Shown: positions 23,203-54,989 of the stretch, piece after piece | Layout: every line of letters begins with the position of its first letter | Position numbering within the stretch: position 1 is the stretch's first letter | Origin: Paracholeplasma manati | GTDB lineage: Bacteria; Bacillota_I; Bacilli_A; Acholeplasmatales; UBA5453 | Direction of reading: 5' to 3' | DNA length: 64,000 bases | Assembly (NCBI RefSeq): GCF_025742995.1 | Contig: NZ_JAOVQM010000004.1 | Span: 62,001-126,000, forward strand | Program-made: the position numbers and the translations under genes | The notes under the pieces: generated by a model | Databases searched by the model: none | Told to the model about the DNA's origin: nothing | Seen by the model: the letters and a program-made list of their open reading frames with translations, nothing else

Positions 23203-23337
23203 CCAATCTTATTAAGAGCTACGGAGGCTAGTCGCCTGTGATGTAGCAGCAACCTGCTTAAGCAAGGTGCTAATGACGAGGGGTACAACCCAACAATGAG
23301 AGATTAGAAACTCTTTTCGTTGGGAAAGAGTTTTTTT
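23203..23337 (+). promoter_or_regulatory. SAM-I (S-box) riboswitch with transcription terminator
   Basis: The conserved S-box core is present: CTTATTAAGAG, then GGAGGCTAG, GTGATGTAGC and GCAACC, the joining GGTGCTAAT, and a 3' partner strand containing AGATTAG. The expression platform follows: AAACTCTTT (23308-23316) pairs with AAAGAGTTT (23325-23333) and ends in a T-run. Bound S-adenosylmethionine should favour the terminator and switch off metK, the gene 20 nt downstream that makes SAM. This is a typical feedback arrangement. Confidence 0.92.
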
Positions 23338-52471: not shown

Positions 52472-52497
52472 TATAGAAAGTGAAAGAAGTGGATTAT

Positions 52498-54285
52498 ATG
52501 AAAACCGTCATTATTGTCGAATCCCCTGCCAAATCCAAAACCATCCAACATTATTTAGGTAAAGATTTTATCGTTGAAGCCTCCGTTGGACACATTCGTG
52601 AATTGGCTAAAAATGGACCAGGTGGCTTAGGTGTGGATGTCGAAAATAACTTTAAAGCGACCTATAAAGTCGATAAAAAACACGATCAAATCGTCAAAGA
52701 CTTGATCAAAGTGACCAAAAACAAAAAAGTCTTAATCGCGACCGACCCGGATAGAGAAGGGGAAGCGATTGCGTGGCACATCGCGGATGTGCTCAATCTA
52801 GACTTAAATGATTTAAATCGCATTACCTTTAATGAAGTCACCAAACCAGCCATTCAAAAAGCGATTGAACACCCTCGTAAAATCGATATGAATTTGGTTA
52901 AGTCACAAGAAACCAGACGCATCTTAGACCGTATCATCGGATTTAAGTTATCACCGCTCTTACAAAAGAAGATTAAATCGGAATCGGCCGGTCGTGTTCA
53001 AAGTGTGGCTTTGAAGATGATTGTCGATTTGGAAAAAGAGATTGAGGCGTTCGTTCCAGAAACGTATTACACCATCAAAGCACGATTTTCTAAGTTTGAA
53101 GCGGATTATACTAAAAATAAAGATAAATCCTTGAAAACCCCAGAAGAACTTCAACAAATCATTGAAAAATTGAATGGGCCTTTTACGGTAACGAAAGTGA
53201 ATCACCGTAAACGCAGTCGTGCAGCTCAACCACCGTACACGACCTCAACCTTTCAACAGGATGCGGTATCCAAACTTAGTTATTCTCCATCCAAAGCGAT
53301 GGGCATTGCACAAGAGTTATATCAAGGGATTGATATTCAAGGCGAAGAAGTGGGCTTAATCACTTACATGAGAACCGACTCAGTTCGCTTGAACGATGAT
53401 TTCATCCTGGAAGCTCAAGCGATGATTAAAGAAGCCTTTGGTTCAGACTATGTCGGTAAGATTAAAACCAAATCCAATGCCAACATTCAAGATGCCCACG
53501 AAGCGATTAGACCTTCGATACTATCTTACACCCCAGAATCTTTGAAGGGTGTTTTAACCGACGATCAATATAAAATATATGATTTGATTTATCGTAGAGC
53601 TGTCATGAGTTTAATGGCTGACGCACTGTATGAAGAACAATCCATTGAGGTAGAGAACCAAGGTGAAGTCTTCGAATATGGCGGTTCTAAGTTGATTTTC
53701 CAAGGGTTCCATAAAGGTAATCCAGAATACAAAGAAAAAGCCTCAACGCTCTTGGACCTAGAGGTGGGAAAACAACTTGAAGCCAAAGAAATTACCCACG
53801 AAGAAAACCAAACCAAACCTAAATCCAGATATACTGAAGCGAGTTTGATCAAAGATATGGAAGAATTTGGCATTGGTCGACCATCGACTTACGCCGAAAC
53901 CACCCGCACATTGCTCAGTCGTAAATACGTTGAAAAGAAACAAAAAGCGTTGGTGCCAACCGACCAAGGTAAACTGACCATCGATGAATTGGATAAGTTT
54001 TTTTCAAACATCATCAACACCAATTATACGAAGAAGATGGAAACTGTATTGGATGATATCTCTAATGGAGAACATGAAAGTAGTGACATTTTAGAGGGCT
54101 TTTACCATAAGTTCATCGCTTTGGTGAAGCACGCGGATGAACACATGGAAAAACGTCAACCAACCCAAGTGGGTCGTGATTGTCCGTTGTGTGGTGCCCC
54201 ATTGGTCATTCGTAAATGGCGTAAAGGTGAATTCATTGGTTGTTCGAATTTCCCTAGATGTAAACACACGGAAAATCTTACATAA
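52498..54285 (+). CDS. topA: DNA topoisomerase I
   Basis: TopA relaxes negative supercoils. The 595-residue protein has the Toprim domain (VESPAKSKTI, ATDPDREGEAIAW), the SAGRVQSVAL segment and the active-site Tyr in LITYMRTDS, then IGRPSTYA. Only one C-terminal zinc finger remains (CPLC and a later CSNFPRC), so the protein is about 100 residues shorter than the Bacillus enzyme with several fingers. The ATG at 52498 begins the Toprim strand directly, behind AAAGAAGTGG. A GTG at 52480 is possible but poorly placed. Promoter at 52443-52471. Confidence 0.94.
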   Translation: MKTVIIVESPAKSKTIQHYLGKDFIVEASVGHIRELAKNGPGGLGVDVENNFKATYKVDKKHDQIVKDLIKVTKNKKVLIATDPDREGEAIAWHIADVLNLDLNDLNRITFNEVTKPAIQKAIEHPRKIDMNLVKSQETRRILDRIIGFKLSPLLQKKIKSESAGRVQSVALKMIVDLEKEIEAFVPETYYTIKARFSKFEADYTKNKDKSLKTPEELQQIIEKLNGPFTVTKVNHRKRSRAAQPPYTTSTFQQDAVSKLSYSPSKAMGIAQELYQGIDIQGEEVGLITYMRTDSVRLNDDFILEAQAMIKEAFGSDYVGKIKTKSNANIQDAHEAIRPSILSYTPESLKGVLTDDQYKIYDLIYRRAVMSLMADALYEEQSIEVENQGEVFEYGGSKLIFQGFHKGNPEYKEKASTLLDLEVGKQLEAKEITHEENQTKPKSRYTEASLIKDMEEFGIGRPSTYAETTRTLLSRKYVEKKQKALVPTDQGKLTIDELDKFFSNIINTNYTKKMETVLDDISNGEHESSDILEGFYHKFIALVKHADEHMEKRQPTQVGRDCPLCGAPLVIRKWRKGEFIGCSNFPRCKHTENLT

Positions 54286-54302
54286 TTCTTAAGTTTATAG
54301 AC

Positions 54303-54331
54303 TTTACAAATACGGTTTTTGATGATATGAT
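54303..54331 (+). promoter_or_regulatory. Promoter of a candidate small RNA
   Basis: TTTACA (54303-54308) and TATGAT (54326-54331) are 17 bp apart, 18 bases after the topA stop codon. Transcription would start near 54338. No coding sequence follows. Confidence 0.65.
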
Positions 54332-54337
54332 GTTGTT

Positions 54338-54412
54338 GATAGCGATATCGAAGGTGTGTACCCCGACACACCTATCCCCTGATCCCCCTCGTCTCCTTGA
54401 GGGGGCTTTTTA
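54338..54412 (+). ncRNA. Candidate C-rich small regulatory RNA
   Basis: Between topA and tpx lies a unit with its own promoter, two hairpins and a terminator. Hairpin 1: AGGTGTGT (54352-54359) pairs with ACACACCT (54366-54373), with CCCC in the loop. A single-stranded ATCCCCTGAT follows. The terminator CCCCCTC (54384-54390)/GAGGGGG (54399-54405) ends in a T-rich tail. Repeated C4-C5 tracts could pair with G-rich ribosome-binding sites, as in the RsaE/RoxS type of Firmicutes sRNA. It does not carry the 4.5S, tmRNA or 6S signatures I know. The end points are estimates. Confidence 0.55.
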
Positions 54413-54416
54413 TTTT
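54384..54416 (+). terminator. Rho-independent terminator of the candidate sRNA
   Basis: CCCCCTC (54384-54390) pairs with GAGGGGG (54399-54405) and is followed by CTTTTTATTTT. It may also stop topA read-through. Confidence 0.8.
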
Positions 54417-54430
54417 ATAGTGGTTATTAT

Positions 54431-54459
54431 TTGATATACATTCATAAAAAGACTATAAT
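54431..54459 (+). promoter_or_regulatory. tpx promoter
   Basis: TTGATA (54431-54436) and TATAAT (54454-54459) are 17 bp apart, 30 nt before the tpx ATG. Confidence 0.75.
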
Positions 54460-54488
54460 AAAGTTAGTAGAATCCAGGAGGAAATCTC

Positions 54489-54989
54489 ATGAAAACATTC
54501 AAACAAAAACCAATTACTGTGTTGGGTCAACCCTTAAAAGTTGGCGATATCGCACCAGAATTTAACGTGGTTGATAATCAATTAGAAGCAGCGCATTTAT
54601 CTGACTATAAAGCCAAAACACTAGTATTAAATGTCGTCCCTTCACTCGATACAGGGGTGTGCTCAATTCAAACCAGAACCATCAATCAAAAGTTATCGAA
54701 TTATCCAGACTTAACGGTGTTGACGTTATCCAATGACTTACCATTTGCACAACGTCGTTGGTGTGGTGCTGAAGGCTTAACCAACATCGTCACTTTATCG
54801 GATTATCAACAACTCGATTTCGCATGGAAGTACGGGGTACATATTGAAGAACTTCGTTTATTGGCGCGATCGGTATTCGTATTGAATCAAAAACGTGAAG
54901 TCGTTTATGTGGAATATCTCGATGAAATGTCTTCTCATCCAAATTACGACGCATTGTTTCAATTTTTAGATCAGTATCTATCTAAATAA
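54489..54989 (+). CDS. tpx: Thiol peroxidase
   Basis: Tpx is an atypical 2-Cys peroxiredoxin that reduces peroxides. The 166-residue protein has peroxidatic Cys58 in PSLDTGVCS and resolving Cys92 in RRWCGAEG, and the N-terminal VLGQPLKVGDIAPEF typical of the family. AGGAGG lies before the ATG. It is a monocistronic gene with its own promoter and terminator, and thus can respond to oxidative stress separately from its neighbours. Confidence 0.94.
   Translation: MKTFKQKPITVLGQPLKVGDIAPEFNVVDNQLEAAHLSDYKAKTLVLNVVPSLDTGVCSIQTRTINQKLSNYPDLTVLTLSNDLPFAQRRWCGAEGLTNIVTLSDYQQLDFAWKYGVHIEELRLLARSVFVLNQKREVVYVEYLDEMSSHPNYDALFQFLDQYLSK

Follow-up and report, generated by a model that had tools for sequence, protein, structure and literature searches.

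Trans-acting small RNAs (sRNAs) are usually conserved over short distances. LhrC, a multicopy C-rich sRNA of Listeria, carries several UCCC motifs in its loops and linkers, which pair with Shine-Dalgarno regions. RoxS/RsaE (RF01820), found in Bacillus and Staphylococcus, is a short stand-alone sRNA with duplicated CCCCU tracts in open regions and a terminator at its end, and its known gene neighbours differ from those of the topA-linked RNA described here. For one of the duplicated CCCC regions of RoxS, experiments showed that it prevents ribosomes from binding at ppnKB, and RsaE/RoxS was described as the sole sRNA besides 6S common to S. aureus and B. subtilis (PMC4409812). FsrA (RF02273), a Fur-regulated C-rich sRNA of Bacillus, includes several C-rich single-stranded regions (PMC4409812).

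The 64,000-nt stretch of the Paracholeplasma manati genome analysed here (the window) contains a small-RNA gene between topA and tpx (Table 1). The first-pass annotation had proposed a stand-alone small RNA with open C-tracts at this place. Comparative evidence backs that proposal. The observation at 54303-54416 holds, and it reaches further than was supposed. The RNA resembles RoxS/RsaE in being short and stand-alone, with duplicated C-tracts in open regions and an end terminator. At least two CCCC tracts in unpaired regions, a trait of RsaE/RoxS, are present in this family, and C-rich single-stranded regions are shared with FsrA. The linkers of this family are UACUUAUCCCCUAUU and AAAUCCCCUUUAAU, in contrast to the CCCCUUUGUU repeat of RsaE/RoxS, and the duplication of CCCCUUUGUU is absent here. 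The 5' hairpin starts at the first base, unlike in RoxS/RsaE. LhrC is multicopy in Listeria, whereas the window RNA is single-copy beside topA, with no second copy above chance in its own genome and no Rfam match.

Rfam 15 was searched at gathering and loose thresholds, and no family fits the window element or its homologues; the first-pass annotation had likewise recognised none. The RsaE covariance model (RF01820) gave no match for window 54250-54500 (E ≤ 10), eight homologues (E ≤ 0.5), or eleven class-level loci (E ≤ 1). The FsrA model gave no match on the window element and one weak match to a distant homologue (24.2 bits versus a gathering threshold of 80; E = 0.24). Elsewhere in the window, a SAM riboswitch is found at 23206-23302 (RF00162, 62 bits). 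Literature searches found no published description of this RNA; a paper on new noncoding RNA motifs reported a different Acholeplasma element, located upstream of aroF (PMC8632094). The topA-adjacent RNA is read here as a new, previously undescribed family of C-rich trans-acting sRNA, which is itself a known kind.

Table 1. Features of the topA-tpx region, in window coordinates.
Feature	Position	Strand	Basis
topA (type I DNA topoisomerase), upstream neighbour	52480-54285	+	TIGR01051, 681 bits
Small-RNA promoter: -35 TTTACA (54303-54308), 17 nt, -10 TATGAT (54326-54331)	54303-54331	+	Promoter scan; TTTACA-17-TATAAT-like geometry, 6 nt ahead of hairpin 1, in 29 of 31 related loci
Small RNA of roughly 74-79 nt with predicted start; 3' end inside the T run 54407-54416	54338-54411	+	Fold and orthologues
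Hairpin 1 (5' end), GATA-GCGA-TATC, GNRA-type loop	54338-54349	+	Folds; hairpin kept in relatives
Hairpin 2, GGTGTGT-ACCCCG-ACACACC, C-tract in loop (ACCCCG 54360-54365)	54353-54372	+	Folds
Open C-rich linker TATCCCCTGAT, likely pairing segment	54373-54383	+	Unpaired in folds of the members examined
Intrinsic terminator CCCCCTC-GTCTCCTT-GAGGGGG and T run	54384-54416	+	Terminator scan
Separate tpx promoter, TTGATA-17-TATAAT	54431-54459	+	Promoter scan; kept in relatives
tpx (thiol peroxidase), downstream neighbour	54489-54989	+	NF001808, 202 bits

Scans and folds recovered the promoter, the open stretch TATCCCCTGAT, and the terminator where the first-pass annotation had put them. Its 8-bp hairpin with CCCC in the loop is also present, with 7 or 8 pairs depending on the fold, while hairpin 1 had been overlooked. 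The 114-nt stretch folds at -34.6 kcal/mol, versus -22.8 ± 3.1 kcal/mol for shuffled sequences (z = -3.8; 0 of 200 shuffles as stable), and the 79-nt RNA from 54338 has a fold z of -4.2 versus shuffles. The small-RNA terminator is the best of the region in the scan (8 pairs, 6 of them G-C). A small ORF at 54327-54434, the only notable frame, begins ahead of the predicted start and crosses the terminator, and was rejected.

The 20-letter hairpin 2 has exactly one match in the genome collection, in Paracholeplasma vituli. Orthologues occupy the same topA-tpx gap in P. vituli and in two other genomes, G004 and G006. In all four genomes with the unit in this gap, GGTGTGTACCCCGACAC is letter-for-letter identical, while the promoter spacer and the terminator loop have drifted. 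With GGTGTGTACCCCGACAC preserved by equally placed orthologues of other species despite this divergence of the promoter spacer, the unit is beyond chance. Hairpin 2 has 17 of its 20 letters constant in the four genomes, and G-U changes in its stem in G004 and G006 preserve pairing. Hairpin 1 is always a hairpin in the relatives, with different letters. The congener G003 has the unit as well. G005 has a topA-tpx gap without the RNA, and no copy was found in this genome.

A model built from the four topA-tpx-gap copies (R1) matched G007 (E = 4.5e-5), where the RNA lies directly after topA, G009 and G010 (E about 0.002), and G043 from another family (E = 3.3e-5). The gene order is topA-RNA-ftsY in G009 and G010, and topA-RNA-tpx-ftsY in G043. 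Weak model matches at L029, L030, L035, L036, L038, L039, and L043 were inspected and rejected as chance.

A long form of the RNA is represented by G043, G003, and G009, and consists of hairpin 1, an open TCCCC linker, hairpin 2, the open linker ATCCCCTT, and the terminator. This form, with its two open ATCCCCT linkers, is found across Acholeplasmatales. The pattern ATCCCCT-N10-36-ATCCCCTT occurs in 37 of 160 Acholeplasmatales genomes, and the reversed pattern in 2. Most of the matches to the former enclose a hairpin; those at L062, L075, and L076 were inspected and judged to be chance. In the window the C-tracts read CCCCUGAU; the relatives have CCCCUAUU / CCCCUUUAAU or CCCCUUAAU. In an alignment of 29 long-form sequences (A6), TTATCCCCT is fully invariant and TACTTATCCCCTATT is nearly invariant.

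All three helices of the long form covary, including all 10 terminator pairs and helix 1, with compensatory changes in 16 of 21 pairs and 95.2% of cells paired. The covariation score is 0.478, versus 0.237 ± 0.013 for shuffled alignments and at most 0.147 with slid partners. The first-pass annotation had named covariation as a check on its proposal, and a lack of conservation of hairpin and C-tracts in relatives as its refutation; the stems covary strongly, and both the hairpin and the C-tracts are conserved. Promoter, hairpins, and terminator might have been grouped by chance, as the promoter matches of the region are in no excess over shuffles (5 versus 7.7), but this explanation is refuted by order-wide conservation, covariation, and synteny, and it retains practically no weight.

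A second model, R2, represents the long form and matches 42 of the 160 genomes of the order at E ≤ 1.2e-7. Seven more genomes were found by R1 and inspection, namely G009, G010, and the R1-only congeners G000, G004, G006, G007, and G008, which brings the total to 49. The RNA was not found in any of the 29 small genomes of genus g15, which are phytoplasma-like in size. In G049 (L125, G049:C26), an apparent remnant is located after topA, with the second linker and the terminator alone left. With R2, the window copy is missed at E ≤ 0.05. The window form is without the first linker and has a C-tract in its hairpin-2 loop; G009 and G010 carry both, and therefore look intermediate. The window form appears to be orthologous to the long form, on the basis of R1, synteny, promoter geometry, and these intermediates. 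It is probably a divergent Paracholeplasma form of the family, a judgement made jointly with that on the explanation as a whole given below.

Of 31 loci, 29 have a -10 box that ends exactly 6 nt ahead of where hairpin 1 begins, and 28 of those 29 have TTTACA or TTTACT as the -35 box. The commonest spacing between the -10 box and the start measured in Mollicutes, including A. laidlawii, is also 6 nt (PMC5138195). The fixed spacing, together with this norm, indicates that the first base of the hairpin is very probably also that of the RNA. In the window this is position 54338, close to which the first-pass annotation had placed the start. Immediately upstream of the -35 box, several Acholeplasma-like loci (among L045-L052, genus g5) carry the word ACTTAAGT and a TGTAA-N4-6-TTACATA-like dyad, possibly a site for a regulator.

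At nearly all long-form loci, topA ends just upstream of the RNA. Downstream, tpx and ftsY-ylxM-ffh are found in most loci, and tpx is missing or displaced in several. The arrangement topA-RNA-ftsY is also found in G444, a genome from a different family that lies outside Acholeplasmatales. Downstream of the RNA comes ftsY in G009, G010, G024-G026, and G444, a transposase gene in G007, and an unrelated gene in G017. The position between topA and tpx on the same strand, and the lack of a terminator between topA and the small-RNA promoter in the window, would also fit a tpx leader or attenuator, or a topA 3' end or terminator, without any function in trans. This explanation is improbable: tpx has its own promoter after the RNA terminator, the RNA persists while its downstream neighbour changes (tpx, ftsY, a transposase, an unrelated gene), G003 has its own topA terminator ahead of the RNA promoter, and invariant open linkers are needless for a terminator. 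Sequence and comparison show an independent transcription unit with its own promoter, a predicted start at the foot of hairpin 1, three hairpins, near-invariant unpaired UCCCC linkers, its own terminator, and no fixed downstream gene, which is co-inherited with topA-ftsY.

The best explanation would be an independently transcribed, trans-acting small regulatory RNA next to topA, present across Acholeplasmatales and, beyond it, in one or more genomes of another order. The stems swap letters and still pair, while the unpaired UCCCC linkers stay constant; thus, the linkers are likely to be the segments that touch another molecule. Hairpin 1 would protect the 5' end. The linkers, together with the loop of hairpin 2 in the window form, would pair over 7-10 bp with Shine-Dalgarno sequences rich in G, for instance AGGGGAU. 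Acting like RoxS/RsaE, the RNA would thereby keep ribosomes from binding a set of mRNAs or set off their decay. Taken as a whole, a new C-rich, RoxS/RsaE-like family of trans-acting sRNA that pairs with G-rich Shine-Dalgarno sequences is the probable reading.

Suitable start sites exist, since the window genome has 44 AGGGGAT-N2-12-ATG sites versus 3 for the reversed pattern, an excess that may represent ordinary Shine-Dalgarno use. Pairing of the linker with 58 start regions of the window was not above that of shuffled linkers (16 of 100 shuffles were as good). A search of other genomes for long stretches complementary to the invariant linker gave no recurrent site. In a sample of 100 sites drawn from six genomes, purA alone was a shared gene whose start site looked plausible. 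Its GGGG site is present in Paracholeplasma, genus g13, and G100, and absent from genera g5 and g14; G005, without any RNA copy found, retains it. As the site is lineage-limited, purA was rejected as a conserved target. The first-pass annotation had suggested, by analogy with RsaE/RoxS, that the C-tracts pair with G-rich ribosome-binding sites. The open C-tracts are indeed conserved, but because the direct target tests are weak, suggestive at best, we infer rather than demonstrate the pairing.

If the RNA were independent and structured, with invariant linkers that bind or sequester a protein, as in the 6S or CsrB type, instead of mRNAs, this would account for the lack of a conserved target in the purA check and the long-complement search. 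The first linker UACUUAUCCCCUAUU is near-invariant across the order and can be recognised even in other orders, which exceeds the expectation for a shifting target set. On the other hand, neither a 6S-like long hairpin nor an Rfam match was found, and C-rich antisense sRNAs are known to be marked by just such UCCCC repeats in open regions, so that protein binding is the unlikelier role. A trans-acting sRNA family kept order-wide and beyond, with its start point and its place in the genome both fixed, would act as a core regulator where transcription factors are few; the order concerned consists of reduced, largely wall-less bacteria. The family is directly testable in A. laidlawii, for which start-site maps exist (PMC5138195), and its absence from phytoplasma-sized genomes provides a natural contrast.

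In G003, a repeated transposase gene, seen at several places such as C1:169609-169625 (L198), has a start site that reads AGGGGATTTTTCTTATG and so complements the open C-tracts. Control of this insertion sequence by the sRNA through AGGGGATTTTTCTTATG is possible.

The arrangement ACTTATCCCYTACATA-hairpin-ACATCCCCTTCCT-terminator is common to class-level matches (families f16, f19, and f24) and to the second copies that G035 and G037 carry. Several of all these adjoin a gene for a tRNA or tmRNA and have recombinases or metal-efflux ATPases nearby, with blocks of about 1 kb that show 91-99% identity between genomes of different families. This suggests that integrative elements probably carry host-like copies of the sRNA. 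Contamination of draft genomes may be behind individual cases, but G037, 99% complete in 6 contigs, argues for real copies. It is a speculative and rather doubtful extension that integrative elements captured a deeply conserved C-rich sRNA hub belonging to wall-less and related Bacilli, and that the near-identical copies at their tRNA or tmRNA ends act on the host sRNA network as a mimic or decoy. Near-identical copies at L129:7672-11466, L132:7669-8780, L127:7790-8538, L128, and L142 adjoin tRNA-Cys, tRNA-Leu, or tmRNA genes, and serine recombinases or metal-efflux ATPases are found in the surroundings of these loci.
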